DNA of 64,000 nt, taken from positions 185,186,041 to 185,250,040 of the forward strand of contig CM060846.1 of the NCBI GenBank assembly GCA_030762175.1, written 5' to 3'. The notes beneath the pieces are model-generated. The model saw nothing but the letters and a program-made list of their open reading frames with translations. It did no database searches and was not told the DNA's origin. Shown here in pieces: positions 1,690 through 62,442 of the stretch; positions within the stretch are counted from its first letter, which is position 1, and each line of letters opens with the position of its first letter. Both the position numbers and the translations under genes were made by a program. Source of the DNA: Metallyticus violacea (lineage: Eukaryota; Arthropoda; Insecta; Mantodea; Metallyticidae).

Positions 1690-3290
1690 TTAGAAATGTT
1701 GAATTTTTTAAGGACCCAGAATGATGACAGCATGTATTTTGTTACATTATGGGTAACCTGGTTTTTTCAGGTAATAAAATTACTTGAAAGAAGACATTCT
1801 TGGCCAAGTTCACAATAAACAAGTTGTAAGAGCTGTGGGCTTATGAGAGCATATGACATTTTTATGAGTCTGTCCATATAATTAATTTGTGCATGAATTA
1901 CAGTTCTCCTCATAGATGTTCTTTCATTATAAAATGTAATAAAAATATTAAATGATATAATAGTGTTTATTATTTTATATAGTTTTATATAATAAAATGA
2001 ATAATCCCATACATTGTGTTGCATCTTAATAGAGTTTGAAATTGTGCATTGTTATATTTGGAAATGTAATGGAATAAGGAAATTCACACAGTAAGGTCAA
2101 GGAAAGCTCATTTCAGTTTGCTCAATATAGCAAGAAAAGAAAATTCACAACTATGCTTTAAATTCATTTTGTCAGTATAACAAGTTAATCATATAAATAT
2201 ATACCAAGGTATTTCCCTAAAACTTTTCCACCATCTGCTGTCTTCTTGTTTGGAATATCAGCTGTACCATATACCTTTGGAAAGGCAGACCTGAACTTAC
2301 ATACCTTTTGCCTATGTGAAAGAGTACTGGTTAGTGTTATCAATGTACTCGCATGTCTCGAGATATCCAAAGTGTTCTTTATTATATGTTAGATGCTTAT
2401 ACTTTGAAAGAGTTAGTCCAGGATCACATGAGGAACAGCTTCAATTGTTTTCTTAAAATACATCGACCACCATGTTATGAAGTCTATAACATTTTCTGAC
2501 TTTACTAGTGTTGCCATGAAAGCATTTGGGAATCTCTTAGCTCATAATATTAGTGAAATATATTTATGTGAAGTATACATTAATTATGACATAAGAGGAC
2601 ACTCTTTATGAGACCAAAGTCATGATCTCGTGTTAAGAAAGAGTGGCCTCTTTCAGAAAAATACTGGTATGATATTAAATCTTTCTGTCCTCATTAAAGA
2701 CAATGAATTCTTCACTTGTCTTCTTGGCAAATTTTCTTTACTTCCTCCATTTTCTTATAGTGCTTAGCTGCTCTTTTTTATGTACAATTTGTTATGCAAC
2801 TGCAGTCCTTTTAACATTTTTCATTCAGTGATGCGGACTTTATCTTTATATTTAAATTCTCACATTCTGAAGACACATCCACCTGAGAATGACTGAATCT
2901 AAATCCATAGTTTTCGTTGTAGTACTTTATATAGTACTCATCTTCACACTGTTTGCTAAATCTTCATTCTCTTCCCATAAGAGCTGATACATTTTGTTAA
3001 CATTAAGTTGGAGGTCTAGGTATGTGAAAGGTTTATTTGAGTAATGTGTATGCTGTGTAGGAAATGACCTTATTTGTTGATTTATTTTAACAAGTGCAGC
3101 TTCAGGGATTGCATTGCCACAATTAATATGCTTCCCATGCTTATCAACAGATTTTCCTTGAAGTAGCAGGGATGTTTAGTTATATACAGATTTCTCAGAG
3201 ACAGCATACAGGTTCAGAAATGATTACGGAATTTCGGAGTCCACACAGTGAAACTTTTGTTAATACGTACATATAATACACACAGCAGAA
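1690..3290. other. ATG4 intron sequence, no recognised feature
   Basis: AT-rich intronic DNA between the first exon and a PLE fragment. I see no convincing exon, RNA gene or element. Confidence 0.5.
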
Positions 3291-3680
3291 ATAAATGGAT
3301 TTAACAAACAAATGGTAGATAAAAAAATAAAAAGATTTAAAAATAAAAAGGAAATTAAACTAATCATCACACTCAGTTCTTCACTTAAAGAAAATACTTA
3401 TCAAAAATTCACATATCACCCTTATGTTAACCATAAATTCCAAAAAATTTTCAAAAAGTAAAACATTACTCTAGCACCAATAAACAGACATAGTGTTGGT
3501 AAACTATTAAATCTAAATAAAATTAAACAAAAAAAGAAGAAAGAAGAACATTCAGGTATATATAGAATTAATTGCAAGGATTGTGACAAAATATACATAG
3601 GAAAAACAAAGAGAAATCTGGGGATAAGATTAAAGGAACACTGGAGAAATATTAGACACAAACAAGTAGAAAAATCAGCA

Positions 3681-3884
3681 GTGGCTGCACATTTTTGGAA
3701 TGAGAATCATGAAATAGAGAAGGACATAACATTACTAAAAACAATTCAACATCCGAAAGAACTTAATATATGGGAAAAAATTTACATAAAAATATATGAA
3801 TACAAACTTATGAATTTTGATATACCGGAAGCAGACAACATATTGTTTAAGTTCATTAACAGACCACCAGAGCAAGCAGAGTAA
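3681..3884 (+). pseudogene. PLE GIY-YIG domain C-terminal tail
   Basis: This open segment is the end of the PLE protein. The real frame extends upstream through the GIY and YIG motifs without a stop to about 3462. The downstream Glu-containing helix (WEKIYI) is retained. Upstream RT sequence is absent, so this copy cannot make a complete retrotransposase. Confidence 0.75.
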
Positions 3885-3920
3885 CATACATACTTTGCTG
3901 AAATTGGCTCCTCAGTCGTC

Positions 3921-3970
3921 GTTTTGGTTGACAATGTGAGGAATGTACCTCACGAAACATGTACCAAAAT
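3921..3970 (+). ncRNA. Hammerhead-ribozyme-like motif in PLE terminal repeat, degenerate core
   Basis: The motif reads TTGACAA, T, a 6-bp perfect stem GTGAGG/CCTCAC closing the loop AATGTA, then GAAAC. The geometry matches the hammerhead core (CUGANGA, stem II, GAAA), but core positions C3 and G8 are substituted, so it is probably inactive. PLEs are known to carry hammerheads in their terminal repeats. Confidence 0.45.
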
Positions 3971-4009
3971 TACTTTTATAAGTGTGTTTGTGAAACTTAA
4001 AGAGAGTTT

Positions 4010-8194: not shown

Positions 8195-8471
8195 GTGAGA
8201 CCCTATCCTTTATCAACATTTATTTTGATTTTTTGGCCACCTTGAAATTTGTATTCTAATAAAATATTTTGCAAACATGGTTTACAAAATTAGAAATCAT
8301 TTTCAGCAAAGAATGAATTTAGCATTCTAATATCAGTACTTACATTTAATTAAGAACATTTAATTTAAATATATTTCTTATGAAGCTGTTGACAATGGAG
8401 TGGTAATATATCCTAAACTTAGGTATTCATTTTTTCTACACTAAACTCCATTTACTTACATATAGGTAAGA

Positions 8472-8515
8472 TGCGTTTCAGGAGAATCTCTCCCATCTTC
8501 AGTTACTTACCGAAC
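8472..8515 (-). ncRNA. Hammerhead-ribozyme-like motif in PLE terminal repeat (minus copy)
   Basis: Read on the minus strand: CTGAAGA, a GGGAG/CTCCT stem II, then GAAAC. All conserved core positions of the hammerhead (CUGANGA and GAAA) are present. PLE hammerheads use a very short stem III, as here. Whether stem I forms cannot be judged by eye. Confidence 0.55.
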
Positions 8516-8865
8516 AGCCATTACTTGAAATGATGGCTGAATACCCGGAGGTTTCTGTGGTGGCCTCTGTTGGTTGAAGTAAGAAATTGCTGAGTTCATC
8601 CATAGGAGGAAACTGGAAATTCATTAGGTTTTCTCTATTTTTTAATATCATTTTTTTTTTCCCAAGTGGATAACTACAATGGGTTGTAAAGATGTTTCAG
8701 CAGTTTAATTTCTGGTTTTTGGTACAAAAGTGAGCTGCTACTGCTGATTTATCCATCTGCTTAAACCGAATATTCCTAAAATGTTTTTTCTCCAAATTCC
8801 CAAACTTCTCTTTGTTTTGCCTATGTGGCTCTGCTCACAATCACCACATTTTATTTCTAAAATCC

Positions 8866-9207
8866 TTATTTCTGTTCTGTTGATATGGAGTCTTTTACTG
8901 TGCAATCTAATAAATTCTTGATGTTGTATCTGTTCTTTGGGCCTAACATTATCCCATGTTCTTTGAACATTTTCTTGAACTTGTTGTGGTAAATTGGATG
9001 GTAGGTGAAACTTTTGAATTTGTATTCTTCTTTTGTGTTTTTCAGTGTGGAAACTTCCCTTATCCCTTTTTGTCTTTTAGATTTATTGATAATTTTTATC
9101 ACTGTGCTTATGTTGAAACCATTGATTATAGCTGTCTTTATTATTTGTTGGTATTCTATTTTGTACTCTGCTTCTGTGAGTGGAATATTCATCAATCTGT
9201 GTGCCAA
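8866..9207 (-). pseudogene. PLE RT-endonuclease linker (minus copy)
   Basis: Starts AHRLMNIPLTEAEY and runs to KNLLDCTVKDS. This is the conserved linker between the RT thumb and the GIY-YIG domain in this PLE family, with FTYHPIYHNKFKKMF in the middle. The GIY-YIG part continues in shifted frames at about 8600-8865. The same linker appears in the copies at 10900-11160 and 41870-42180. Confidence 0.7.
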
Positions 9208-9362
9208 ACTGTGAAATACTGCATAGTTATGTGGAATGGGGTTATAACTCTCATTTTTTATTTAGTTTTCTGTATGTGTTTATTTTCTGTAAATTACAAA
9301 ATTCAAACAAACTCCATTTCTTATAATTTTTAAATCTAGAAATGGTAGCCACCATTTCTTTC

Positions 9363-9833
9363 TTATTCTATGGTAAATTGTATACATTCATGTTTAAAAT
9401 TAAAAAGTTTCAGGGCATCTATTGAGTGTTTCTTTGGTATTATTGCAAAAATGTCATTCACAAACTTATACCATGACTTGAAAATTAAAGAGAAGGCTTT
9501 TGTGATATGTGTTTCATATGAACACATGAATAACTCTGCTAGAAAAGGTGACAAAGGGTTTCCCGTAGTTAGGCCTGAAACTTGTAGGTAACATTTTTTG
9601 TTTAAACTGAAGTAATTTAGTTTAATGCAAATATTAGTAAGATTTAATAAGTCTTCTATTTCTTTTGTTTTTAAATTTATTGATGTTAACCATTTCTTTA
9701 GCATAAGCATAAGTTTCTCTGTAGGTATGCTTGGGAATAAGGCTTTTACATCCAATGATACCATCATATCTCCAGCTGTAATTCTGCTATTTTTAAGTTT
9801 TTTGACCAGATCAACTAAATTTTTAATGCTCAA
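9363..9833 (-). pseudogene. PLE reverse transcriptase (minus copy)
   Basis: PLE RT core: VSLDVKALFPSIP (motif A, catalytic Asp), SGLTTGNPLSPFLAELFM (motif B) and KFVNDIFAI (motif C). The motif C box is altered from the usual YVDD to FVND, so one catalytic Asp is lost. The frame ends just before the LPFLDVKI block because of a stop. Upstream on the same strand to ~10388 further PLE coding sequence can be traced with frameshifts. Confidence 0.8.
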
Positions 9834-10399
9834 ACTTTGGAATCTCTTAAAAACAATTGAAAACTTTGATCATTTCTTTTTGCTACCTTGTATGTGTGTG
9901 AATTTATTTTGTTTATTATTGGTCTCATGCTGTTATCATTTTTATGCATTTTAGTAGTGCATAAAGCCTGGGTAGTACTGGATTACTCTGTGTGATATTC
10001 TGTTTTTCAGTAGTAGATTGTGTTTTGACTTCATTTAATGTTTTGATTAACATTTTATTGCATCAATTGGTTTGTAGTCTTGTCCTTTTAACATAGTTTC
10101 AACACTTATGTATTCTTTTTGTCTAAAATGGCTTTTTATTACCTTTGTCTGCTTTTATATATACATATATAACTGGTTTTTCCTTTGGTGGTTTTAATAT
10201 CATTCTGTAGTTTATTGATTTCTTTCGGTTTTTTATGTTCTCTAAAAGGTTTTTGCATTTACTTTTGAAAAACAATTTTTCCCTTTCGTTTAGTTGTTGG
10301 GTGGCTATGTCTATGTCGGCTATGTAATCTTCTATATTATCTGAGAAATCTATACAAGTTTTTAGGCTTTTATTTAGGAGATTGATTTCTTAATGGTTA

Positions 10400-11580
10400 A
10401 CATCAATAAATTTAAAAACAGAAGAAATAGAAGATTTATTAAAACTTACTAATATTTGCATTAAACAAAATTACTTCAGCTTAAACAAAAAATATTACCG
10501 ACAAGTTTCAGGCCTAACTATGGGAAACCCTTTGTCACCTTTTCTAGCAGAGTAATTCATGTGTTCATATGAAACACATATTACAAAAGCCTTCCCTTTA
10601 ATTTTCAAGTCATGGTATAGGTTTGTGGATGACATTTTTGCAATAATACCAAAGAAACACTCAATAGATGCCCTGAAAGTTCTTAATTTGCAACATGAAT
10701 CTATACAATTTACCGTAGAAGAAGAAAGAAATGGTTGGCTACCATTTCTAGATGTAAAAATTATAAGAAATGGAGATTGTTTGAATTTTGTAATTTATAG
10801 AAAACTACATAAAAAATGAGCGTTATAACCTCATTCCACATATATATATATATAAAGTGTTTCACAGTTTGATGAATATTCTACGCACAGTAACAGAGTA
10901 CAAAATAGAATACCAACAAATAATAAAGACAGCTATAATCAATGGTTTCAACAAAGACACAGTGATAAAATTATCAATAAATCTAAAAGAAAAAAAGGGA
11001 TAAGAGAAATTTCCACACTGAAAAACACAAAAGAAGAATACAAATTCAAAAGTTTCACCTACTATTCAATTTACTGCAAGTTCAAGAAAATTTTCAAAGA
11101 ACATGGGATAATGTTAGGCCCAAAGAACAGATACAACATCAAGAGTTTATTGGGTTGCACAGTAAAAGACTGCATATCTACAGTGCAGAAATCAGAAATT
11201 TACGAAATAAAATGTGCAGATTGTGAGCATAGCTACATAGGCAAAACAAAGAGAAGTTTGGAAATTCGGAGGAAAGAACATTTTAGGAATATTTGGTTAA
11301 ACAAGTGGATAAATCAGCAGTAGCAGCTCTTTTTTGCACCAAAAACCGTTAAATAAAACTGGAAATGAAACTGCTGAAACATCTTCACAACCCATTGAAG
11401 TTATCCATTTGGGAAAAAATGTTCATATTAAAAAATAAAGATAACTTAATGAACTTCGAGTTTCCTCCTATAGATGAACTCAGCAATTTTCTACTTCAAC
11501 CAACAGAGGCCACCACAGAAACATCTGGGTGTTCAGTCATCATTTCGAGTAATGGCGATTCGGTCAGCAACTGAAGATGG
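10400..11580 (+). pseudogene. PLE RT and GIY-YIG endonuclease (plus copy)
   Basis: The RT starts within motif B (SGLTMGNPLSPFLAE, about 10508-10551), followed by a stop, then FMCSYETHITKAF and YRFVDDIFAI with a normal VDD box (about 10617-10646), then LPFLDVKIIRNG. After frameshifts the GIY-YIG core reads IYEIKCADCEHSYIGKTKRS (about 11200-11260). The final tail ends at 11574 after LMNFEFPP. Several stops make this copy non-coding as a whole. Confidence 0.8.
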
Positions 11581-11612
11581 GAGAGATTCTCCCAAAACAG
11601 TTTTTACTTTTA
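11569..11612 (+). ncRNA. Hammerhead-like motif, plus copy (G12 mutated)
   Basis: CTGAAGA at 11571-11577 and a GGGAGA/TCTCCC stem are intact. The following GAAA is AAAA, so the catalytic G12 is lost and self-cleavage is unlikely. It is the mirror of the motif at 8472-8515. Confidence 0.5.
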
Positions 11613-11674
11613 TGTAAGTAAATGGAGTTTAGAGTAAAACAATTTACATCTAAATTTAGGATACATTTAATTTG

Positions 11675-19005: not shown

Positions 19006-19201
19006 TGCTATTTATTGCTCACCATTAGGAAGCTTTGAAAATATCTTGATGAAACTTGAAGATACTTTAAATTTTTATTTAAGCCTAAGCATGAAATAAT
19101 TATATGTGGGGACATAAATATTGATTACTTAATTAATACTTATTTATATAAACAATGTATACAGTTTTTTTCACACTAACTCCATTCACTTACATAAATT
19201 T

Positions 19202-19250
19202 GGAACATATGTTTCGGGAGCGATCCCTCCCATCTTCAGCCTGTTGACAA
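19202..19250 (-). ncRNA. Hammerhead-ribozyme motif, left inverted arm, intact core
   Basis: Minus strand: CTGAAGA, T, a perfect GGGAG/CTCCC stem II with a 6-nt loop, GAAAC, then a 2-bp stem III (AC/GT around ATAT). A GG/CC start of stem I is possible. It is identical to the right-arm motif at 19521-19570. Confidence 0.65.
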
Positions 19251-19520
19251 ACTGTCGTTAAACGTGGCGGTTGGGTCTCTTGATATTCTTGTGGCGGCAT
19301 AAAAATCATGAAATTAAATCAGAGATAAAACTACTTAAACAACTTCATAATGCAATAGAACTTTCCACTTGGGAAAACATTTTCATTACAAAAAATAAGG
19401 ATAATTTGATGAATTTCGATATCCCTCCATTGGATGAACTCAGCAAATTCCTAATAATACCAACAGATGCCGCCACAAGAATATCAAGAGACCCAACCGC
19501 CACGTTTAACGACAGTTTGT

Positions 19521-19570
19521 CAACAGGCTGAAGATGGGAGGGATCGCTCCCGAAACATATGTTCCAAATT
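19521..19570 (+). ncRNA. Hammerhead-ribozyme motif, right arm, intact core
   Basis: CTGAAGA at 19528-19534, the GGGAG/CTCCC stem II and GAAAC at 19552-19556. All catalytic core residues match the hammerhead consensus. It sits in the PLE terminal repeat, the location reported for PLE hammerheads. Confidence 0.65.
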
Positions 19571-22279
19571 TATGTAAGTGAATGGAGTTAGTGTGAAAAA
19601 AACTGTATACATTGTTTATATATATATACCACTCCATTGTCAACAGCTTCGTAAGTACACTTATTTGTAATACTTATTTACTTAGTGAATTGATTAAATT
19701 CCCTTCTTGCTGCATATAATATGGAGCATACAATTAACTTTCCCACCAGGATTGATAAAAACTCTAGCACAGCAATAGATAATATATTTGTAAATTCAGA
19801 CAAACTGTCGTCATATTCTGTGTCTCCATTGATTCAATGGTCTCTCTGACCATAATGCTCAAATAATAGTTAAAAAGAATTCTACAGTAAAACTCAAAGA
19901 ATATTTTAGATATATAAAATATAGAGATATTAATGATGCAAAACCCCAGTAAAATGGTGGAGGCACTTCAAAAGTCATGGAATGATATCTTCAGTGCAAA
20001 TGATGTTAACAGTAAATTTAACAATTTTTTTTACACATTTTTAAATTCCATTTTCAAGCATATTTCCCACTAAAAATTAAAAAAAAAAAAGTTATAATAT
20101 GAGCAGGGAATTAACCCAAGGTATTAAAATACCTTGTCAACATAAAAGACAATTATATAATGAGCTTATGCTCAGTAAAGACCCCTAAATTAAAAATACA
20201 TTTTAAAAAGTATTGTAACATACTTAGGAAAGTCATAAAAGCAGCAAAGGGCATCCATTATCAAACACTTACCAGTCAGTGAAGAAACAAAATAAAAAGT
20301 ACTTGGAATATAATAAAAGAAGATACAGGCAAAAATATGCAACAAGATGATGCAATAATCTTAAGCACAAACAATCAAGATAAAGAACACACTGTAGATG
20401 TAGCAAATGTGTATAATGATTACTTTCTTAATGTAATAAAAAATGTAAATTTATACTCTGGTGATAAAGATGCATTAAGGATTTTACAATCATCACTTCC
20501 CAGTCAAAACAGTTAATTCAAACCATATGCCACTACAACACAAGAAATTAGTAATATCATTAGAAAACTAAAATCAAAAAACACTTCTGGCTATGATGAG
20601 AGTAACAGCAAAATCGTAAAGGCCTGTGCAAAGGAAATTAGTGCATCTCTTAGTCACTTGTGTAATGAGTCTTTAACATAGGTGCATTTCCTGAGAGGTT
20701 AAAATATTCAATATTGAAACTTTGTTCAAAAAGGAAGAAAAGATAAATGTCTCTAATTATAGACCTATAACTATTTCAACTACATTTTCTAAAGTGTTTT
20801 AGAAAGTAATGTACAATAGGCTTTACCATCACCTTGAAAGTAACAATATTCTGGTTAATGATCAGTTTGACTGTGAAAAGGAATTTCAACAGAAAATGCA
20901 ATCTGTAAACTCACTAGTGTCATTACTGGAATTCTGATAGATAAATTAGCTTTCTATCAAATAAAAAGCCAAAATTGAAAATTATTCATATTCTACCTTG
21001 GCAAAAGGAAACAGAAAGTAGTAATAAATTGTCCCTTTAAAATAAAAAACAATGATTAACCATGGAGTGCCTCAAGGATCTGTTCTGGGCCCTCTTCTTT
21101 TTCTGATATATTTAAATGATCTCTCCTTATCTATCCAAAATGTATGAAATGCTGTTCTATTTGCAGATGATACAGGCATATTGATTGATAAATGGAAATA
21201 GCCTGAATGATTGTGCCATTAAACTAATTCTGGTTCTGAGTTCTTTGTGTATATAGTTCAAAGCAAACAAATTGTCTCTAAATCTAGATATAACAAATAT
21301 TATGAAATTCATTGTTCACCGTTCTCCAGATCCACAATTACAGATAGGATATTATAACAGTGTACTTCTACAAACCAAATATATTAAATTCCTTGGTTTA
21401 ATAATTGATATCCATCTGAATTGGAAAGATCACATTAATCTTACCATACCTAAACTTAGCAGTGCATGCTATGCAATACTTGCATTAGTAACATTGGAAC
21501 TAAGTCTTTAAAACTAGTTTACTATACTTATTTTAACTCAATAATGAAATATGACCTTATATTTTAGAGAAACTTAGTTAAAAGTGAACATGTCTTCCTA
21601 TTACAGAAAAAAAGACATATGAATAATCACTGGTACACATAGCACACATTCATGCAGAAACCTCTTAGGCAATTTGAAATTTTAACTCTTCTATGTGAAT
21701 ATGCATTATCCCTCAAAAACTTTTGAGTAAGAAATAAAGAAAAAATTGTTCAAAATAACAAGATTAATAGACCAAAAGCAAATCTACTAGACTGGTTTCA
21801 ACACTTTCCTGCCATCAAAAGGAGTTTATTATAAATGCATTTTAGTACAAAATCCTCATTTCTCTATCATAAAAGCCTTAATAAACAATGATAAGCCCTT
21901 TAAATCTGCTCTTGGAAAATCCCTATGTAAAAGTGCATATTATTCTGTAAGGGAATATATGAGTGACAATATATTATACTGAGTTAAAAACACTGCAATA
22001 ATTTTATATCAATGCATATGTAAACATGCATATAGTAAAATTTGTGTGTTTGAGTGACTTGTCAGTTTCTGCTTCATTAGTTTTTGTTGTTTTGGTTAAG
22101 TTAAAGTGTTGCTTTTTCATTTTTATTGTTATATAGGTGTACAAGATATTTTTTGTAAATATGGATTGTGTGTTACTGTGATAATTGTAAATGACATGTG
22201 TGTAGGTCTCTGTGACTGCTTCTTGAACTGACTGAATGCTTCAGTAACTAAACTAAATCAGTAAAGAAAAAGCTTATTA

Positions 22280-26155: not shown

Positions 26156-26613
26156 CCATCTCCTCATGGCTAAAAACAAGTGGAATAAATGATACACACA
26201 TAAAAGAATACATCAAAATGACAGAAATTAGCATAAACCAAGCCTTTTTTACTTTTAAAGGAAAATTTTATAAACAACAAGCAGGACTTACAATGGGCAG
26301 CCCCTTATCTCCATTTCTAGCTAACCTCTTCATGAGTAGATTTGAAACACACATCAACACAGCTTTTCCTTACATATGTAAGGCATGGTACAGATATGTA
26401 GACGATATATTTGGCATAGTTAACAAAAAACTCATTGACGAGGCCTTAAAACTTCTAAATATTCAAGATAATAACATATCATTTGCATACGAAATAGAAA
26501 CAGATAACATGCTGCCATTCTTAGATATTAAAATAATGAAATGCCAAGAAAAACTTAAATTTTGGAATATACAGAAAGAATACACATGCCCACAGCACAC
26601 AAACATGCAGTAA
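26140..26613 (+). pseudogene. PLE reverse transcriptase, family P2
   Basis: Carries QAGLTMGSPLSPFLANLFMS (motif B, about 26278-26340), WYRYVDDIFGI (motif C with both Asp residues, about 26385-26420) and LPFLDIKIMK (about 26513-26545). Motif A lies upstream and is missing by truncation. The true frame does not start at the first Met; homology begins near SSWLKTSGIN. Relative to the sister copy, about 40 bases are deleted near 26590, shifting the frame before the linker. Confidence 0.85.
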
Positions 26614-26835
26614 TTAACAGTTTAACACACCGGCTAGTTAACCTACAAATTAGCAAAAAAGAATATTTTAAAGAATACAAACAAATAGAAGAAACAGCAG
26701 TTAAAAAAATGGTTTTAAAAAAGAACTAGTACATAAAAAGGTGCAGAAATTCAAGAGACAAAAACATATCAAAGAAACCACAACACTTTCAGCGACAAAA
26801 GATAAACTAATTTTTAAAAAATTCACATATCATCC

Positions 26836-27189
26836 ATGGGCCACAAAAAATTTCAGAATATTCTTAAAGATTTTAATATCAGGTTGACACCAATTAATAG
26901 ATTTAATGTTAAAAATTTACTGATAGATAATGCCAATGACAGTATTCCACAAGAAGAAAAATCAGGTATTTACAAAATAAACTGTGCAGAATGCGAAAAA
27001 ATTTACATCGGAAAAACAAAGAGAAACATAGGCACACGATTAAAGGAACATTTCAGGAACATAAAGTACAAGCAAATAGAGAAATCAGCAGTAGCATATC
27101 ATTTTTGGACACAAAATCGCGACATAATAAATAAAGCAAAATTATTAAAATCGGTACAAGGACCTACGGAATTAGCAACCTGGGAATGA
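26836..27189 (+). pseudogene. PLE GIY-YIG endonuclease, family P2, split by a SINE
   Basis: Linker end (NRFNVKNLL), then SGIYKINCAECEKIYIGKTKRN with the GIY...YIG pair and the PLE-type CxxC between, then the catalytic-helix region TRLKEHFRN and SAVAYHFW. The frame runs into SINE-A after LATWE; the lost tail continues at 27469. In PLEs this endonuclease nicks the target to prime reverse transcription. Confidence 0.87.
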
Positions 27190-27456
27190 ATGAATGAATT
27201 GTGTTTAACACCCGTTTTTGCTACAGAGGCACCACAGTGCTGATACATGAGATGAAATGATATATTGGGAAAGGATTTTTATGAAAGGAATCGTTCCAGG
27301 CCTAAGTTTAGGGTACCTCCCCGGCATTTACCATTTTATGAGGACTGAGGAAAACAAGGAAAAAACCTCAGTCAGGAAGGACGGTCCTGGCGGTATTCGA
27401 AACCAGACCTCCCGCTCACGAGTCCGAGACTTAACGACCTCGGCCACCCGTGGCGG
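27185..27456 (-). mobile_element. SINE family A inserted in PLE endonuclease
   Basis: Minus-strand copy: the (TGAA)n tail is on the left and the tRNA-like head (CCTCGGCCACCCGTGGCGG complement) on the right. It is flanked by the perfect 12-bp duplication TAGCAACCTGGG at 27173-27184 and 27457-27468. It is younger than the PLE it splits. Confidence 0.95.
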
Positions 27457-27607
27457 TAGCAACCTGGGGGAAAATCTACATCTACAAATACAAAGACAGC
27501 ATAATGAACTTCGACATCGTCGGGGATGAAAACATAAACTACAAGTTTATCACACCGCCACCAGAGCAGAATATACATTCCCACAGCTCAACGAATGATC
27601 CGACAGT

Positions 27608-27660
27608 TGAACTTTAGCCTGGCTGAAGATGGGAACTAAATGTTCTCAAAACCGGTTCCA
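27608..27660 (+). ncRNA. Hammerhead-like motif of P2 (G12 mutated)
   Basis: CTGAAGA near 27622, a GGGAAC/GTTCTC stem II with a TAAAT loop, then AAAAC instead of GAAAC. The core is one substitution from consensus at the catalytic G12. Confidence 0.5.
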
Positions 27661-27793
27661 TACATTTATGAAAAGTAAGTGAAGCTTTAAGAGTGTGTAG
27701 TTCAACTGAATCATACAATGATATCAATTAATATGTTCATGATTTTATTAGGCATTCCAATTTGTTTTAATTTTATCCATATAGTTCCTCTCT

Positions 27794-32990: not shown

Positions 32991-32996
32991 CTGAAT

Positions 32997-33285: not shown

Positions 33286-33289
33286 AAGA

Positions 33290-41737: not shown

Positions 41738-42680
41738 GATTTCTATATTTAAAAATTATAAGAAATGGAGATTGTTTGAATTTTGGAATTTACAAAAAAG
41801 AAATGCACATGAAAAACTACATAAAAATTGAAAATTGTAACCCCATTCCACATAAGTATGCAATATTTCAAAGTTTGGCACACAGATTGATGAATATTCC
41901 ACTCACAGAAGCAGAATACAAAATAGAACACAAACAAATAATAAATACAGCTATAATCAATGGTTTCAACAAAGACACAGTGGTAAAATTATCAATAAAT
42001 CTAAAAGACAAAAAGGGATAAGGGAAGTTTCCACACTGAAAAACACAAAAGAAGAATACAAATTCAAAAGTTTCACCTACCATTCAACTTACACAACAAG
42101 TTCAAGAAAATTTTCAAAAGAACATGGGATAATGTAAGCCCCAAAGATACAACATCAAGAATTTATTAGATTGCACAGTAAAAGACTCCATATCAACAGA
42201 ACAGAAATCAGGAATTTACAAAATAAAATGTGCAGATCGTGAGCAGAGCTACATAGACAAAACAAAGGGAAGTTTGGAAATTTGGAGGAAAGAACATTTT
42301 AGGAATATTCGGTTTAAGCAGATGGATAAATCAGTAGTAGCAGCTCACTTTTGTACCAAAAACCATAAAATAAAACTGGAAATTAAACTGCTGAAACATC
42401 TTCACAACCCATTGGAGTTATCCACTTGGGAAAAAAAATTTTATATTAAAAAATAGAAAAAATCTAATGAATTTCGAGTTTCCTCCTATGGATGAACTCA
42501 GCAATTTCCTACTTCAACCAACAGAGGCCACCACAGAAACATCTGGGTGTTCAGCCATCATTTCCAGTAATGGCAGTTTGGTGAGCAATTGAAGATTGGA
42601 GAGATTCTCCCAAAACACGTCTTACTTTTATGTAAGAAAATGGGGTTTGGTGTAAAAAAAATGAGTACCTAAGTTGAGGA
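41738..42680 (+). mobile_element. Penelope-like element, family P1, 5'-truncated
   Basis: Starts near LKIIRNGDCLNFGIYKKE (late RT), continues through the linker (HRLMNIPLTEAEYKIEHKQI) and a decayed GIY-YIG region (SGIYKIKCADREQSYIDKTK, where YIG has become YID), and ends with a terminal repeat (GTAAGAAAATGGGGTTTGG). A possible short duplication TGTGTAA lies at 41731-41737 and 42681-42687. It is closely related to the 8.4-11.7 kb dimer. Confidence 0.8.
42585..42630 (+). ncRNA. Hammerhead-like motif, P1 copy, inactivated
   Basis: TTGAAGA replaces CTGAAGA (C3 to T), the stem II is weakened and AAAAC replaces GAAAC. Two core losses. Confidence 0.4.
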
Positions 42681-42689
42681 TGTGTAAAG

Positions 42690-43830: not shown

Positions 43831-44104
43831 ATGAGTGGCCAAAGTCGTTAAGGTGCAGACTCGTGAGCGGGAGGTCTGGGGTTCGAATCCTGCCAGGACC
43901 ATCCTCTCTGACTGAGGTTTTTTCCAGGTTTTCATCAGTCCTCATAAATGGCAAATGCCAGGGAGATACCCTAAACTTAGGCCTGGAACATGTCCTTCCT
44001 TAAAAAATCCTTTCCCAATTTTATAATTTTATCTAATGTATCATCAGTGTCCATCACCTATGATGTCTCTGTAGTAAAAACTGGCATAAACACTATTAAA
44101 AAAT
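43831..44104 (+). mobile_element. SINE family A
   Basis: The tRNA-like head has a well-kept A box region (GAGTGGCCAAAGTCGTTAAG) and B box (GGGTTCGAATCCTG). The body is shared with the 12519 copy. A 10-bp duplication TCTCATCCTT lies at 43821-43830 and 44105-44114. Confidence 0.92.
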
Positions 44105-48003: not shown

Positions 48004-48285
48004 TGCATGAATGAATGAATGGTGTTTTTAATGCCCCTTTTTGCTACAGAGGCACCACAGACGATGGACACTGGTGATACATGAAATGATATATTGGTAA
48101 AGGATTTATTTTTAAGAAAGGAAGCATTCCAGGCCTAAGTTTAGGGTACCTCCCCGGCATTTGCCATTTATGAGGACTGAGGAAAACCTTGGAAAATCCT
48201 CAGTCAGGACGGTCCTGGAGGGATTCGAACCCCAGACCTCCCGCTCACGAGTCCGCGATTTAACGACCTCGGCCACCCATGGCGG
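48004..48285 (-). mobile_element. SINE family A
   Basis: Minus-strand copy, nearly complete, with (ATGA)n tail on the left and tRNA-like head ending at 48285. A perfect 13-bp duplication TGCAGGTATGGAA lies at 47991-48003 and 48286-48298. Confidence 0.94.
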
Positions 48286-48644
48286 TGCAGGTATGGAAAA
48301 ACATAGTTCGAGACTTTAGCAGTTAAGCTTTTGCAAAGCTAAAAAGATGTGCTACAAAATAGCGAATTGTACAAAAGTAATGCAAAAACTAATATTTAGG
48401 ATATGAAAATGTTTCATTTGACTTATATCACATAAAATTTTCCTAAATCTTTACAAATCTGTAATATTCGGATCAATTAGCTTATTCTTTTTCATATTTC
48501 AAAGACATGCCTCTAATTAAAGTAAACCTGAACTAAATTAGTCACTACATAAAACTTTTAACATTTGTTTTATGTAGCAGACTTACCCGAATAATCAAAT
48601 AGAGATTATAAAAATATTCTATGTTTGATTAGTGATTTTTGTTG

Positions 48645-54195: not shown

Positions 54196-54983
54196 TACTA
54201 AATACCCTGTCGGTCATGCTGGTGTAGAAAAGGGACAGCAGATGATGAAATATAAAAAAATTGCTTTGGAAAGCACTGAAGATGATGGAGTGTCTGAACT
54301 CTTCTTCAGATGAAAGCAAAATAATACTTCAACTCTGTACAAAAAGCTTTCAAAATAATAATATAAGAACTCCTTCAAGTTTATGTAACCAGATCAAGAG
54401 TTTAGAGACAATGAATTTATTCTAAAAAATCCTCAGAAATTTTATATAGAGAAAGATAATGGACATCAACTATTAACAGAGCAAATAAGATATAATTTAG
54501 GTGGTGGCAAGTAAGAAGTAAAAAGTATGTTAAATTCCAATGGAGGAATGTATATTGTAATGATTTTAGGCAAGCACTAGCTGCAAATTATGGTCAAATA
54601 TATCGGCAAAGGATAAATTTAACGGCAAAAGAAAATAAAATAGAGAAAGCAGTTAACATTATTGTTATAATGCATAGGGCAGGGTAGAAAATGAGAATGG
54701 TGAAGAGGGTATATAAACAGGGAGAAGATTGGTTCGATGAATGTATAATTGCCAAAAGATTATTGAAATAAATGGAAAGAGCAAGGAGTTGAAGAATCAA
54801 AAGACAAATGTTTAAATGGTAGAGATTTTTATAATCTATCATTACAACAAAATTAAATAGAGTGGAGAAAGAAAAATAAAAGCAGTTTAATTAGGATTTT
54901 AAATGAAAATAGCAAGGTATGGAAGGTTGTAAAATCAACTTGTAATTAATATGTAAATCAGCCTAATATTAATCCAGAGAAGT

Positions 54984-55279
54984 TTTTTTTTTTTGATTGA
55001 TTTATTTACGGACGCTCTTTAACATCTCAGGTCATCAGCGTCCCATTCAATTCAGTGAAACGGCCAACAAATTTTGCTCAGAGGCCCCTCTTTCAGGCTT
55101 GAGTTCTTTATCGTGCCGTAAATGTACGACACGGGACCCACGGCTTTACTTTCCTTCCAAAGGAAGCCATACTTAGGATTTTTACGCCCGAAAAAATTCA
55201 TCGGTCCCGGCCGGGTTCGAACCCGCGATCTTGGGTTTAGGAGGCAAGTATGGTAACCACTACACCACCAGGACCGACC
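54984..55279 (-). mobile_element. SINE family B, full length
   Basis: Minus-strand copy with the best-preserved tRNA-like head of the family. Acceptor-like GGTCCTG/CAGGACC pairing, A box (GTGGTGTAGTGGTTACC complement) and B box GGGTTCGAACCCG are all intact. A 12-bp duplication ATCC(A/G)GAGAAGT lies at 54972-54983 and 55280-55291. It splits the LINE before EKWLEYF. Confidence 0.95.
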
Positions 55280-55573
55280 ATCCGGAGAAGTGGTTAGAAT
55301 ATTTTGAAATGCTGTACAGTGAACATAGATACATAAATATGATGCCAGACTTGGAAATTATTAATAGTTGTATAGAAATTTTGGATAGTATAGTGAGAGA
55401 TGAGGGAGTCATAAAATAAGTGAAAGAAGTGAAAAAATATAGAGTAACTGGTATAAATGGAATTTCATCAGAATTTCTCAAACAATAGTGTAGTGATATA
55501 AATAGAGTCAAGATAATAACAGGTTTGCTCAACTTGGATAAAGAGAAGGGGTATGTGCCAGAGAACTGGAGAT

Positions 55574-55620
55574 CAAGAGCTAATGACCTAAGCAATTTTT
55601 TGCCCTAAAACAGTAATAAT
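55574..55620 (+). mobile_element. Minimal LINE 3'-end insertion
   Basis: Contains GCTAATGACCTAAG followed by TTTTGCCC, closely matching the final ~50 bp of the LINE at 1442-1490. It breaks the host LINE between NWRS and WRKAII. Near-duplicate flanks AGAACTGGAGA (about 55562-55572) and AGAATTGGAGG (about 55625-55635) look like a target-site duplication. Confidence 0.7.
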
Positions 55621-55699
55621 TGCAGAATTGGAGGAAAGCAATTATCCACTCATTTTATAAAGGAAATACTGACAAACCTAATATGAAGGGGAATGAAAT

Positions 55700-56990
55700 A
55701 AAAACATTAAATATTTCTTTTAATTTAATTTATTAAACAAAAGTTGAACACAAGTGTACCATTTTTCAACGTAGTCTCCATGACGTTCAACACACATGCT
55801 TCAGAGCATAGGAAGTGCACAGATTCCTTTGGAGAAAAAATCCTGTGGTTGTGTGCGCAGCCAATCATGCACTGTCTAGTGCACCTCTTCATTGGTATGA
55901 AATTTCTCCTTCCATTGTTTCTTGAGTGGTCCAAACGTGTCAAAGCAAGGTCTGGTGAGTATGGCGATGTGGAAGAGTATCAAAGTGAAGATCAGTGATA
56001 GTTGCAACTGTTGCACGAACAGTATGAGACCAAGCATAATCATGTTGCAACATGACACCTGTAGTCAGATGTCCACATTACTTTGATCTGATTGCAGGCC
56101 AAAGATGATTTTTCAACATATTGGAACTTGATGCACTGGTTATGGTGTTTCCCTTAGGCATGTAGTGTTCCAAGATAATGTCCCCTTCATTCCAAAAGAG
56201 AGTCAGCATAACCTTCCTTACAGATGGCTGAGTCCGGAACTTCTTGGGTTTTGGTGATGAGGAATGGAGCCATTCCTTGCTTGCTCTCTTTGTTTTGGGT
56301 TGGTGGCAGTGTACCTAGGTTTCATCTCCTGTAATGATTCTTGCAAGGAAACCATCCTCTTCTGCTTCAAAGCACTTAAAATTTCTTCACAGGTGTCAAT
56401 GCATTGCTCTTTCAGTTCTAAAGCAAGCTGCTGTGGCAGCCACCTTGCAGACACTTAGCGAAACTTAAGCACATCATGAATAATGTGATGTGATGGGTCA
56501 TAACTAATGTACAGATTTGCAGCTGTTTCATTCGCCATAGCATGGCAATTTTCCATCACAATGGTTTCAACAGCTGCAATAGACTCTGGTGTCATAACAC
56601 GGTGTGCCTGACCTGAGCAGGGAGCACTACCATAGAATTCACACTGTTTCTGATTGTAATCCACTCATAAGTTTCTGCAGCAAATAACATGCATCACAAT
56701 ACTGGACCTTCATTAGCTGATGGATTTCAATAGCTTTCATACCTTCATTGTTCAGAAAATGTATGGCAGAACATTGTTCTTTGCTGTGCATGTTGCAAGT
56801 GGGGTAGTCATTTTAAACTGGTATTGTGGCAGCATTTTGCTTGTCTTCAGTATGCTGCCATCTGTTGAGCATTCTTTAAAGCATTAATTACAGTATTGCC
56901 AACTTAAGAACAGTGGCATGAAGATTCACATTTTTATTACATTTTTAAGGTTTTTCATTTAACTCCCCCTTGTATTTATAGAGGTATTGC
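55700..56990 (-). mobile_element. mariner-family transposon, complete length but decayed
   Basis: A minus-strand transposase occupies about 55735-56800 and splits the LINE RT. Terminal repeats were not resolved by eye. Length (~1.3 kb) fits a full mariner. Confidence 0.75.
55735..56664 (-). pseudogene. mariner transposase pseudogene
   Basis: From right to left: HHIIHDVLKFR, a stop, VSARWLPQQLALELKEQCIDTCEEIL (mariner linker region), then HHQNPRSSGLSHL, FGMKGTLSWN..., PYSPDLAL (third-catalytic-block region, with the expected PSD lost), and a basic C-terminal tail ending near 55735. At least five stops or frameshifts. The second catalytic region near 56040-56080 is unrecognisable. Confidence 0.78.
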
Positions 56991-57599
56991 ATTGCCATCA
57001 AATGTAGCAGGTTGCAGAAATGGGATGGAGAATATGATATTCTTTCAAAAATTTCAAATGGAAATTTGAATTGGGAAGCAAACAGTAGAAATATATTTAT
57101 AATGAAAACATTAGCAGATAAATGCTTAAAGGATAAAAGAGTTAAACTGTATAAGGCATTTGTGGATTTAGAGAAAGGGTATGATAGGATTGAGTTACAA
57201 TTATAATGGTATAAATTATAAGCAAAGAAGTTAATCAGCATATGGTAAACATTATTAAAGCACTGTATAAGAAAAATATATTTTGTGTGAGATTTGAGGA
57301 AGGTGTAGAACCAGAGAGATTAAGCAAAGGAAGGGTTTATGGCAAGGGTGTAAATCAACTTCAAATCTTTTCAATCTATAAATTGATGATGTATTACTAG
57401 GAATAAGGAAGAACAATAATTTATGATAGTTATAAATAATACTGTAATTCCTGGATTATTATTTGCAGATGATTTGGTAGTAAGGCCAATTACAGTAAAG
57501 GGTTTAAAACAATATCTTCAGGAATTAGATAAATGCTGTAATGAATGGAATTTAAATGTAAATTAAAACAGTATTTATTGGCTTCACACCTCCAATAAT

Positions 57600-58700
57600 T
57601 GATAATATAGCAGTCATCAATTTTAATACTATAAATTTAATCATATGAATTTTATTTGCTTGTTTCAGTAAAATTACAGGTTTGTAGTAATGTTCCAAAT
57701 ATTCTCTAGCAAGAGTGCACTTATATTAAAGATGGTATGTTCATCTTGTCAAAAGGAATATAAAAACATGTACTCTTTTGTAACCATTATTATTATTTAG
57801 CTATATTTGTACAAGATGCATCATGTCCCGTTACGTTCCTGAGGGTAGGATCCAGAAGACTTATCTTTTGTTATGTTAGCTAAGAGGGAAATTAAAAACT
57901 GCCATTGTTAGAAGAAAAGCATAGGTGTATACAAACCTGTAACCTTTAGAAGGGAGAAGCTAACTGTAAATTGTACAAAGAAGAGTGAATAGACACATTT
58001 TTAAGTAATATTTAATACAATAGCCAATCGAGAAGACCATAGGAAAGCATCTAATAACCAATAGGAAGACGAGATCACAAGAAATGTTCTAGAATATTCT
58101 ACGGCAAAATTTCAAAAATCAAAAACAGCATCTGGACTGACAGACTTTGATAGTCATATAAAAGAAATCTCAAGGCCTGGCGCTACTTGACTTCTTACTT
58201 AACTGAATGCTTGACTTAGTTGTCGCGCTTGTTGCATGCTTGTGTTGGTTGTTACTAGTTGTTATTTGTTCTTGTCCTTAAGACAGATTTATTTCAGTTT
58301 TGCAATTCTAGTTCAATTACACCTCATTATTAGATACTTTGTTACAATTAGGAAAAGTCGAATGTAGGTCGAAATTTAATTCTGAGAAATGCATAGTGAA
58401 TATTGAATCTAGCGCATAGATAGTGAAAGTTAATGGTGAATATTGCCAAGTAGTGATAACGTGAATATTTATGAAGAGTGAACAGTATCGACAAGTGTAG
58501 AAGATAGGAACCTCACGAGTACAAAAAGTTTAATGCCCCTATGTTATTTAAGCTAAAAGACAAATCTTCATTAAATATAGAAGTGAACTAATAGGTCCAA
58601 GGTTCTCAGGAACTTCCAGTGATGCCCAGAGTTAGGAAAGATACAGACAGTAATAAATTGTGCTTCTAAATAAAATTACGAAGCTTCTTAATATCTGGTC
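57600..58700. other. Unassigned segment around the promoter-like cluster, possible LTR
   Basis: 57820-58690 is less AT-rich than neighbours and has a promoter-like core. No primer-binding site, paired LTR or protein domain was recognised, so its nature is open. Confidence 0.35.
58020..58165 (+). promoter_or_regulatory. Promoter-like cluster: two CCAAT boxes, heat-shock element, TATA box
   Basis: CCAAT occurs near 58024 and 58058. A perfect three-unit heat-shock element TTCTAGAATATTC lies at 58087-58099 (alternating TTC, GAA, TTC at 5-bp spacing). A canonical TATAAAAG lies at 58157-58164. Spacing and order resemble animal Hsp promoters or heat-responsive LTRs. A transcript would start near 58190. 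No Hsp coding sequence follows; the first ATG (58207) opens only a 24-codon ORF. It could instead be an LTR promoter. Confidence 0.5.
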
Positions 58701-60190
58701 AGCTGTCCAATTCCTTCTCCCCCTGGTCCATAACTAGAAAATTCCAGCATACTTATCAACAAGCTCAGCCAAGGCATCAACACTTCTGAATATGTTGAAC
58801 TGCTGTTTGAGCAACATTTGCAAAAGTGCCCTCAGTGACTGCAGCACATGCCTTTTCAATTTTTAGTTCTATTTATTGTGATGTTTTCCCATTTTTTAAG
58901 ATTTTTTGCATTAAAATACATAATGGGGTAGAATTTGTGTTTAAAGTATTCCTTATGTCTTACTTGGATGATTAAATGTTGTTAATGTATTCATCTTTAG
59001 TATTTATGTCTTTGCTTCATTAAACACAGATTTTTATTTTCAAATATGTTTAAAAATTAATGTTTTGCTTTTTTGCCACTCAGTGTATATCTGGATTGGT
59101 TTTCGTAACCTGTAAAGTGAAGGAATGTTTTTGGATCATTTTACTTGAAGATTAGTTCCATTTGTGTGCAGTTTCAAAATTCCTCTATTAATTTGCCTGC
59201 TTTGGTGTGAATGCTACATCCCCATCTAGGTGAATGTCCAGTTAAGTTACAAGATATAGTTAATATAGTTAATATATAGTTAATATTTATTTCTAATACG
59301 TGTAAATTTAAAGTTGTATTAAAAAGTGAACTACAAATGGCATAACTACACAACTTTGATCTGTTTTTCATACTTCAATTTTCACTATTTCTGATTTATC
59401 TACAGAGTTCATGGTTTCAATTAATTTGAATTTGGAAGTTATGTCTAATCTTATTCCATTTATGATGCCACTTGCAATTTGCCTATTTTTGTGCATGTGT
59501 TTTATATTTTAGTTTTTAATACTGAAATATTTTTAGTATCTTCAGTTATATTTGATTTTGTAATAATGAACCAATCAATTTCATTTTGTTGTATCATTTA
59601 ATTGATTACAGCCATTTTGCTCTGAAACATGCTACCTGCATTCCATTGCATTATCTTCATAATATCTGGGAAACAGTTGCCTAAAGGACAGTTCATTTCA
59701 GTTGGATTTATGGAGCTTTAACAAAAGCTCTTTATTACTTTGTTGCAGCTACCAATATTTGATGATCCAGTCCCAGGAAGCACTATTTGGAGGTATTAAA
59801 AATAGTCTTTTGTTTGTAAGTGTAAAGTAGGTACTCAATGCAACTCCATGTTCATATACCGCTGGAACATTAAGCAATTCAGATATTAGCCACCTCTTTA
59901 AACATGGTTTAAGGCAGGTATGTCAAATTTGCAGTTCCATACATTTTCTTTTGCAACTATTCTCTAAAATAAAAATTATATTTTATATTTTACCATAAAA
60001 ACCAATCTGTCAAAGTCACTGCAATGTGATCACTCTTGCTGTGTTGGTATATCTGTAATATATCTGAAGGCAAATGCACTACTAAAGACATTCTTTTTTT
60101 GGCAGATTAACCATATGGGTGATCCATTTGTTTTGCAGCATGCTAACTACATATTTCTTCTGGATTGTGCAAATTCAAACACGTTCTACC
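58700..60190. other. Unassigned stretch
   Basis: A short A/T-rich TATAGTTAA triplication lies near 59260-59285. No gene was recognised. Confidence 0.45.
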
Positions 60191-60307
60191 ATGTACTACT
60201 TAAATGTAAATTGGAACTGCACAGTGAAGCTAATCATAATAATTGATATCATTGTATGATTCAGTTGACTACACACTCTTAAAGCCTTACTTACTTTCAT
60301 AAATGTA

Positions 60308-60350
60308 TGGAACCGGTTTCAAGAACATATAGTTCCCATCTTCAACCAAA
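60308..60350 (-). ncRNA. Hammerhead-like motif, left arm of hypermutated PLE (C3 to T)
   Basis: TTGAAGA replaces CTGAAGA; the GAAAC part is intact. The substitution is itself of the C-to-T type seen across the element. Confidence 0.45.
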
Positions 60351-60629
60351 CTAAAGTTCAACTATCAAATTATTCATTAAACTATGGGAATATATATTCT
60401 ACTCTAATGATAATATAATAAACTTATAATTTATATTTTTATCCCCGACAATATCAAAATTCATTATACTATCTTTATATTTATAAATATAAATTTTCTC
60501 CTTGGTTACTAATTCCATAAATCCTTATACTAATTTTAATAATTTTACTTTATTTATTATATTATAATTTTATGCTCAAAAATAATATACTACTACTAAT
60601 TTCTCTATTTACTTATACTTTATCTTTAA

Positions 60630-61915
60630 AGACATAAAATTGCATCCCTCTGACACTCTTATATCTTTTGACGTAGAATCTTTGTTTCCGAGTATACCAA
60701 AAGAAAAACTCCAGATTTATCTACATGATTGACTAAAAACAAGTGGAATTAATGATACATACATAAAAGAATATATCAAATTGATAGAAATTTGCATAAA
60801 TCAATTCTTTTTTATTTTTAAAGGAAATTTTTATAAATAATATGTAGGATTTATAATGAGCAGCCCCTTATCTCCATTTTTAGTTAACCTCTTTATGAGT
60901 AGATTTGAAATATATATCAACACAGTTTATTTATACATATTTAAGGTATGGTATAGATATGTAGATGATATATTTGTCATAGTTAATAAAAAATTCATTG
61001 ACGATGTTTTAAAATTTTTAAATATATAAGATATAAATATATCATTTATACATGAAATAGAAATAGATAATATGTTGCCATTCTGGGTATTAAAATAATG
61101 AAATGTTAATAAAATTTTAAATTTGGAATATATAGAAAGAATATATATGTAGATAATTATATTAAAGCAGATAGTTTTAATTTCACAGTGCACAAATATG
61201 CAGTAATTAATAGTTTTAATATATTGGCTAGTTAACCTATAAATTAGTAAAGAAGAATATTTTAGTGAATATAAATAAATAGAAGAAATAGTAGTTAAAA
61301 ATGGTTTTAAAAGAGAATTAGTATATAAAAAGGTGCAGAAATTTAAGAGATAAAAACATATCAAAGAAACCACAACACTTCCAGCAAGAAAAGATAAGTT
61401 AATTTTTAAAAAATTCACATATCATCCATGGCCCACAAAAAAATTTCAGAATATTCTTAAAGATTTTAATATTAGGTTGGCACCGATTAATAGATTTAAT
61501 GTTAAAAATTTATTGATAGATAATGTTAATGATAGTATTTTATAAGAAGAAAAATCAGGTATTTATAAAATAAATTGTGTAGAATGTGAAAAAATGTATA
61601 TTGGAAAATAAAGAGAAATATAGGTATATGGTTAAAGGAATATTTTAGGAAAATAAAGTATAAGTAAATAGAGAAATTAGTAGTAGTATATTATTTTTGG
61701 ACATAAAATTATGATATAATAAATAAAGTAAAATTATTAAAATTAGTATAAGGATTTATGGAATTAGTAACCTGGGAGAAAATTTATATTTATAAATATA
61801 AAGATAGTATAGTGAATTTTGATATTGTCGGGGATAAAAATATAAATTATAAGTTTATTATATTGTCATTAGAGTAGAATATATATTCCCACAGTTTAAT
61901 GAATGATTTGATTGT
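60630..61915 (+). pseudogene. PLE RT and GIY-YIG, hypermutated copy
   Basis: In order: SFDVESLFPSIP (about 60670-60705), SSPLSPFLVNLFMSRFE (about 60860-60910, where the sister has GSPLSPFLANLFM), WYRYVDDIFVIVNKK (about 60950-60990), MLPF (about 61070), then a linker and GIY-YIG region full of stops: YWKIKRNIG replaces YIGKTKRNIG, and KEYFRKI replaces KEHFRNI. Most lesions are C-to-T, such as Gln to stop, Ala to Val, Thr to Ile and His to Tyr. It extends further 5' than the sister copy, so it is useful for motif A. Confidence 0.85.
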
Positions 61916-61931
61916 TAAATTTTAGTTTGGT

Positions 61932-61975
61932 TGAAGATGGGAACTAAATGTTCTCGAAACTGGTTCCATATATTT
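61932..61975 (+). ncRNA. Hammerhead-like motif, right arm of hypermutated PLE (C3 to T)
   Basis: TTGAAGA, stem II GGGAAC/GTTCTC and GAAAC. The catalytic C3 is lost by C-to-T, as in the left arm. Confidence 0.45.
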
Positions 61976-62140
61976 ATGAAAAGCAAGTAAAGCTTTAAGA
62001 GTTTGTAGTTCAACTGAATCATATAATGATATCAATTAATAAGTTCTACCATCTTTCATTGATTTATTTAAGTCACCATTTTGCAAGCTAACAAAAAGTT
62101 CTGCAGTTTTCATACTGTTTGAGTTGGTTATACTGTAGTG

Positions 62141-62442
62141 TTGATTGATGATTGATTTATTTATGGATGCTCTTTAACATCTCAGGTCATCAGCGTCCCA
62201 TTCAACTCAGGGCGTGAAATGGCTAACAAATTTTGCTCAGAGGCCTCTCTTTCAGGCTTGAAGTTCTTTTTCATGCCGTAAATGTACCACATGGGACCCA
62301 CGGCTTTACTTCCCTTCCGAAGGAAGCCATACTTAGGATTTTTTCGCCTGAAAAAATCCATCAGTCCTGGTCAGGTTCGAACCCGCATTCTTGGGTGTAG
62401 GAGGCAAAAATGGTAACCACTACACCACCAGGACCGACATAC
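62141..62442 (-). mobile_element. SINE family B, full length
   Basis: Minus-strand copy with tail at the left, tRNA-like head ending at about 62438 and body blocks shared with the family. A 12-bp duplication TATACTGTA(G/A)TG lies at 62129-62140 and 62443-62454. Unlike the PLE 100 bp upstream, it shows no excess of C-to-T. Confidence 0.93.

Follow-up and report, generated by a model that had tools for sequence, protein, structure and literature searches.

Sense-strand C-to-T hypermutation in a head-to-head Penelope-like insertion

One Penelope-like insertion in the 64,000-nt stretch of DNA analysed here, referred to as the window, carries a dense and one-sided load of derived C-to-T changes that is patchy along the element, ordered by sequence context, and laid down as a burst before the two head-to-head arms of the insertion separated. 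It is the one edited insertion seen in the window (60193-62042). We consider it likely that cytosines of the sense strand were deaminated before reverse transcription, whether in RNA or in the source DNA, and the agent was presumably an enzyme. The narrower reading, in which the Penelope RNA itself was edited before or during reverse transcription, underlies the mechanism proposed below and is held at a little under an even chance. Deaminase scars in retroelements serve as a fossil record of genome defence, in which the vertebrate cases have the opposite polarity; a dense sense-strand scar in an AID-like context would point to an editing activity unrecorded for insects in the literature searched.

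Anatomy and family of the insertion

The insertion sits between two copies of GTTCTACCAT, forming a 10-bp target duplication around two head-to-head arms (Table 1), and its ends agree with the coordinates 60193..62042 given in the original prediction. Both occurrences of GTTCTACCAT in the whole window flank this insertion. As a chance control, exact matches of at least 10 bp were found in 4 of 300 random pairs of 101-bp window flanks; beyond the bare 10-bp match, the duplication directly abuts the right end of the insertion. On the right, 60627-62042 holds a Penelope-like element truncated at its 5' end, which runs from reverse transcriptase (RT) motifs through a GIY-YIG endonuclease to a 3' UTR with a hammerhead-like motif, and the left arm is about 94% alike to the matching portion of it. 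The two arms, of which just the left carries the 44-nt extension, look like products of separate reverse-transcription events. Short chance matches aside, the extension has no second copy within the window; two other insertions there carry tails, and on that analogy it is probably Penelope tail or element sequence.

Table 1. Features of the hypermutated insertion and of the Penelope copies compared with it
Feature	Position	Strand	Remarks
Target site duplication, left copy GTTCTACCAT	60183..60192	+	Identical to 62043-62052
Left-arm extension ('tail'), 44 nt past common 3' end	60193..60236	-	C 0.16; absent from right arm
Inverted left arm, 3' part of element	60237..60626	-	Reverse complement of 61650-62041; C>T in the element's sense
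5' part of right-hand copy, RT stretch SFDVESLFPSIP	60627..60760	+	Looks unedited; C 0.18
RT to linker region	60761..61352	+	Mostly converted C>T; largely unedited stretch 60851-60905 inside, C 0.20
Internal island, largely unedited	61353..61484	+	C 0.18; 2 C>T in block
GIY-YIG endonuclease and start of 3' UTR	61485..61945	+	Heaviest conversion; C 0.024
3' terminal part with hammerhead-like motif	61946..62042	+	Mostly unedited; motif read by eye
Target site duplication, right copy GTTCTACCAT	62043..62052	+	
Sister copy, unedited comparison	26164..27740	+	Interrupted by 271-bp repeat at 27187-27457
Related Penelope insertion	8367..11662	.	Head-to-head arms; 11-bp duplication ACATTTAATTT; balanced changes; control and outgroup
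Short Penelope insertion	19147..19667	.	Head-to-head; 13-bp duplication TAATACTTATTTA; right-arm tail; balanced changes
Related Penelope copy	41739..42681	+	Outgroup and control
Related Penelope copy	3262..4007	+	Outgroup

This architecture recurs in the window, where all three head-to-head insertions examined combine a duplication of 10-13 bp with one extended arm. In the insertion at 8367-11662 the tail is on the left arm and matches that of the short insertion at 19147-19667, and a second, offset 11-bp match blurs its exact left end. Its arms carry unequal numbers of private changes (29 and 65; 34 in the third copy), which suggests that they derive from two different RNAs in one event.

A biochemical precedent for such anatomy comes from the Anolis Penelope protein PAc, which, in the available text of PMC11167929, cuts each strand of the target, extends both, and begins reverse transcription from a pair of adjacent internal RNA sites, with an optional 'tail' of 30-40 bp between them. 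From this biochemistry, two reverse-transcription events, one per target strand, should leave head-to-head arms, a short duplication and a single tail. The PAc element resembles the present one in its RT and GIY-YIG domains and, to judge by the arms and the tail here, probably in the extension of both target strands and the pair of starts; its hammerhead may have a counterpart in the hammerhead-like motif. It differs in that its genomic copies are described as tandem or partial tandem rather than head-to-head, and that text makes no mention of hypermutation (PMC11167929).

Domain matches were obtained on the sister copy, not on the edited one: its reading frame at 26137-26613 matches the reverse transcriptase family PF00078 (37.7 bits; cut-off 29.6), and that at 26818-27189 matches GIY-YIG, PF01541 (29.0 bits; cut-off 22.6). 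No target duplication was found around this copy. Its protein has 32 homologues in all, including two from Diploptera punctata (51 and 48% identity over about half of the query), one from Contarinia nasturtii (42% over 36%) and one from Camponotus floridanus (28% over 79%), and these named relatives fit an insect host. A scan for the endonuclease in bacterial and archaeal contigs returned one distant locus, 44% identical over 47 residues. Hammerhead-like motifs with a divergent core lie at three Penelope 3' ends (27607-27650, 61937-61975 and 3930-3975); a CTGAAGA..GAAAC-like motif was read by eye and stem II folds, and Rfam's hammerhead families gave no match on the window, the sister end or the 3262-4007 copy.

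A one-sided burst of derived changes

Against the sister copy, over the full alignable length (which begins only at 60730 of the right-hand copy), 136 of 218 sister C are T in the insertion, compared with 9 of 189 G that have become A (Fisher p 4e-38). The remaining transitions are few, at 3 of 311 T for T>C and 12 of 562 A for A>G. At these counts there is neither an APOBEC3-type G>A excess in the sense strand nor an ADAR-type signal (A>G in sense, or T>C from antisense). The endonuclease part, for which a count by hand had given about 38 C-to-T out of some 45 differences and about 2 G-to-A, was recounted by alignment and has T at 33 of the 35 C sites in 61500-61749. The 3' part that follows, claimed to hold about 33 C-to-T against fewer than 10 others over some 250 bp, holds 37 C>T and 10 other substitutions (61765-62046 vs 27457-27738). 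When binned, 61500-61949 has 70 of its 81 C converted, and the excess reaches upstream of the stretch counted earlier, into the RT part.

The region of about 390 bp that is present twice allows these changes to be ordered in time. Both arms have in common 49 C>T and 5 other substitutions; private to the right arm are 4 C>T and 6 others, and private to the left arm 3 C>T and 11 others, with one private C>T lying at the alignment edge and with one three-state site and gaps left out. The contrast between shared changes (49 to 5) and private ones (7 to 17) is strong (Fisher 8e-8), and in the core of the arms 49 conversions are shared and 2 discordant. With so few other shared substitutions, the C>T changes must have arisen within a period of almost no other change and ahead of the split between the arms, bearing out the original prediction that they are confined to the sense strand and older than arm separation. 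They came as a burst, and the RNA, or the DNA from which it was made, carried them already. By codon position, in two reading frames, 28, 27 and 29 changes fall at positions 1, 2 and 3 (of 41, 45 and 52 C), and 10 of 14 possible stop codons were made; the evenness and the stops together give no sign of selection at the protein level while the changes arose.

Such a pattern sets the insertion apart from its neighbours, in which C>T and G>A were counted per copy against the majority of the other copies of each family. Among related Penelope copies (the PLE-A trio) the two classes are balanced (C>T/G>A 4/3, 14/12 and 4/7), as they are in six tRNA-SINE copies (5/4, 5/4, 13/14, 2/3, 7/6 and 13/13) and in the short Penelope insertion 19147-19667 (C>T 14, G>A 12, T>C 15, A>G 13). 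A repeat of about 270 bp, met inside the sister, gives 5/1, 3/0, 4/2 and 8/10 over four copies, a slight overall lean to C>T (20 vs 13). That lean, the AT-richness of the window, and the place of C>T and G>A among the commonest changes in ordinary copies are what can be said for ordinary decay through CpG methylation loss, AT drift or descent from an old T-rich subfamily. Not only does the asymmetry of 136 to 9 speak against decay of this kind, but merely 16 of the 136 converted C lie in CpG, the PLE-A and tRNA-SINE controls are balanced, 49 C>T are shared with 5 other substitutions, and ten stop codons argue against a living coding lineage. We therefore reject it, on one-sidedness, burst and stops, as very improbable, in line with the earlier dismissal of both CpG decay and general AT drift.

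The repeat families used as controls are distributed through the window. Copies of the ~270-bp repeat lie at 27187-27457, 12519-12797, 43835-44097 and 48008-48287, the one inside the sister being flanked, by eye, by a repeat of TAGCAACCTGGG. The tRNA-like SINEs lie at 18200-18500, 25503-25768, 30911-31193, 32996-33297, 54994-55278 and 62149-62438, and one of them reaches the Rfam tRNA threshold (18204-18275).

The direction of change was examined with four other Penelope copies as outgroups, 62-65% alike. Where the sister has C and the insertion T, the outgroups show C at 0.445 and T at 0.256, resembling sites with C in both copies (C 0.418, T 0.257) and not those with T in both (C 0.15, T 0.63), which identifies C as ancestral. 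A per-site majority of the outgroups over 137 sites sides with the sister at 67, with the insertion copy at 39, and is tied or different at 31; at this degree of likeness, comparison by site class is the better test of polarity. Protein homologues point the same way. Taking 26 of the 32 for the RT part and 22 for the endonuclease part, 35 of 48 amino-acid columns altered by C>T favour the sister's residue, 4 that of the insertion copy and 9 neither. The insertion copy lacks three endonuclease residues (Arg, His and Ser) that 22 of 22 homologues possess, and one column of the RT part, H144Y, goes strongly in the opposite direction (18 vs 0 of 25). Judged by these comparisons, C is the ancestral base at most C/T sites. 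The original prediction had taken C to T as derived and had itself raised an ancestral T as the outcome that would speak against it; outgroups and homologues return C instead.

Polarity also bears on whether the sister was the edited copy, through ADAR acting on antisense RNA and changing T to C in the sense strand. Such editing would leave the same pairwise difference, and it could call on the 39 of 137 sites at which the per-site majority goes with the insertion copy; with outgroup bases at C/T sites matching those at C sites, and proteins at 35 to 4 for the sister, it is refuted and keeps a negligible probability.

Patchiness and sequence context

Conversion is far from uniform along the element. 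C content falls to 2-6% in 60761-60850, 60906-61352 and 61485-61945, and stands at 11-20% in 60627-60760, 60851-60905, 61353-61484 and 61946-62042. Successive C fates are clustered, with 63 runs where 103 +/- 7 are expected, and a two-state model describes them better than a single rate (log likelihood -122 vs -144), with a switching scale of roughly 14-22 nt. With so short a scale in the model, some of what stands out as long islands may be clusters of unfavourable contexts. Two other accounts of the islands were tried and set aside. Had they been patches converted from an unedited copy they should be younger, yet changes other than C>T are about as dense within them (15/325) as elsewhere (34/958). 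Nor does RNA secondary structure have a clear effect at any span: predicted pairing averages 0.43 at edited and 0.50 at kept C with unlimited span (p 0.13; circular shift 0.07), and spans of 150 and 60 give p 0.46 and 0.31 (circular shift 0.41 and 0.34). As pairing fails to separate edited from kept C clearly, no feature of the pattern calls for RNA. The island at the 3' end falls on the hammerhead-like motif; by analogy, and as a suggestive point only, the spared last ~100 nt and the tail would lie where the protein presumably binds the RNA and reverse transcription starts.

The original prediction had seen changes in all dinucleotide contexts; if that is taken to mean no preference, it needs correction, as the contexts proved uneven. 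Over the 218 C, conversion declines from WRC (73/93) through SRC (29/47) and WYC (28/58) to SYC (6/20); by preceding base it is 73/99 for AC, 29/41 for GC, 21/46 for TC and 13/32 for CC. The converted fractions make WRC hot and SYC cold, in the manner of AID, and there is no APOBEC3-type preference for TC or CC, the two least converted classes. With local rate allowed for, WRC is tied for best of 507 one- and two-position motifs, the top-scoring of which is Y[C]NY, as a disfavoured motif, with a score almost equal to that of WRC. The order holds under permutation within blocks of ten C (p 5e-5; trend 9e-7 over all C), and again when the islands, picked by eye after the C fates had been seen, are dropped (160 C left: WRC 68/77, SRC 27/36, WYC 24/34, SYC 6/13; trend p 3.6e-4). 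C near pyrimidines are also spared, including all four preceded by CC (0/4 converted), which may be the same effect as the WRC/SYC order.

These contexts are informative for an alternative that needs no deaminase, namely misincorporation of A across from template C by the reverse transcriptase, for example when dGTP ran short. Misincorporation would place C>T in the sense of both arms within one cycle, and the sparing of C after CC is in keeping with it. Dislocation at template 5'-UC should, by our reasoning, favour TC, whereas TC is converted far less often than AC (21/46 vs 73/99); a strong preference at positions -2 and -1 and largely unedited islands of 130 nt are not expected either. We regard this alternative as improbable.

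Probable strand and candidate enzymes

In the mechanism we propose, a host cytosine deaminase of AID-like taste, with WRC best and SYC worst, would have converted C to U in a Penelope RNA, or in two RNAs from one source, ahead of reverse transcription or in its course. The edited RNA would then have been reverse-transcribed from both nicked target strands, starting at two neighbouring RNA sites, which would leave two head-to-head arms, one tailed and one untailed and both with edits, between the copies of a 10-bp duplication. In favour of RNA are the complete one-sidedness, the lack of repair traces and the small C/T excess between the arms, which differ at 6 C/T sites (edge site left out) where 2.1 are expected from private G>A (Poisson p 0.02), a slight excess that hints at separate molecules. 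Two observations pull the other way. The near-total agreement of the arms (49 vs 2) is explained at least as well by a common mutated source as by two independently edited RNAs, and the WRC/SYC order is the recorded taste of a DNA deaminase, which counts against the RNA reading.

Both observations lend weight to a source genomic copy deaminated by an AID-like enzyme on sense (non-template) single-stranded DNA during transcription, with the transcript seeding the insertion. The context order is as recorded for AID on DNA in the available portions of PMC8141862 and PMC5391955, and near-identical edits in both arms, 49 of them shared, would follow from one mutated source. Such an origin demands heavy conversion of one strand (70/81 C in 61500-61949) with no trace on the other; the changes at A:T that error-prone repair would leave are missing (A>G 12/562, T>C 3/311), and the 6 C/T differences against 2.1 expected hint at separate molecules. 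We think deamination of the source DNA possible and, on balance, unlikely.

For cDNA, polarity is the deciding feature. Had first-strand cDNA been deaminated, the sense strand would show G>A, the class seen at 9 of 189 G against 136 of 218 C for C>T, so the APOBEC3 mode is out, provided that each arm was copied from RNA as a minus strand. Of the template named in the original prediction, 'RNA or one cDNA strand', RNA is retained, with a mutated DNA source copy beside it, as the simplest, and first-strand cDNA is dropped. Deamination of the plus (second) DNA strand, separately in both arms, is possible, at the price of two like events on a strand that becomes double-stranded. It is the twin-arm anatomy that helps to separate editing of the RNA or source copy from editing of cDNA, a distinction that single insertions cannot provide.

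Among known systems, APOBEC3 offers an outward parallel, in that individual copies of mammalian retroviruses and retrotransposons bear cytosine-type transitions that are dense and one-sided. Its target is the minus-strand cDNA, so that the sense strand shows G>A; here the change is C>T in sense, the context is RC rather than TC or CC, and the host is probably an insect. AID acts on DNA, in vertebrate B cells. Its preference for WRC and avoidance of SYC, as given in the accessible parts of PMC8141862 and PMC5391955, follow the same order as the insertion. The strand, too, is the same, sense (non-template); somatic hypermutation differs in showing A:T changes, which the insertion 60193-62042 does not.

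Other deaminases to be compared are LaAIDL, which we take to be a brachiopod enzyme, and ADAT2/3, a tRNA-editing enzyme type widespread in eukaryotes. Invertebrate AID/APOBEC-like deaminases, such as sea urchin SpAIDL and LaAIDL, extend cytosine deamination beyond vertebrates, with targets left open; the available text of that study mentions no insect or arthropod (PMC5956068). Amphioxus ADAT2/3 can deaminate C in DNA, with a taste for TCG and hairpin loops and not the WRC > SYC order, according to the sections available (PMC10354150). For Drosophila, the accessible text of PMC12634045 describes C-to-U editing at one position of Arc1 mRNA and counts three cytosine deaminases that are predicted and unstudied. 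A WRC > SYC context is on record for none of these amphioxus, invertebrate AID-like or Drosophila enzymes in the available parts of the three sources (PMC5956068, PMC10354150, PMC12634045), and C>T hypermutation of Penelope or insect retroelements appears in none of the literature matches listed, which covered few subscription papers. That an invertebrate, probably insect, AID-like or convergent deaminase hyperedits retrotransposon RNA before target-primed reverse transcription is offered tentatively, as a doubtful proposal. If true, such editing would parallel APOBEC3 defence at the level of RNA and would leave Penelope insertions scarred by C>T in the sense strand.

By composition, other stretches of the window are also C-poor or skewed to G over C, at 5000-6500, 30100-31700 (minus), 54300-55000 and 56800-57700; self-comparison of the window found no sister copies of those at 5000-6500, 30100-31700 and 54300-57700. 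The first of them, 5000-6500, reads by eye as a non-LTR retrotransposon, and a reading frame at 39113-39568 (minus) looks, again by eye, like the remnant of a mariner-type transposase.
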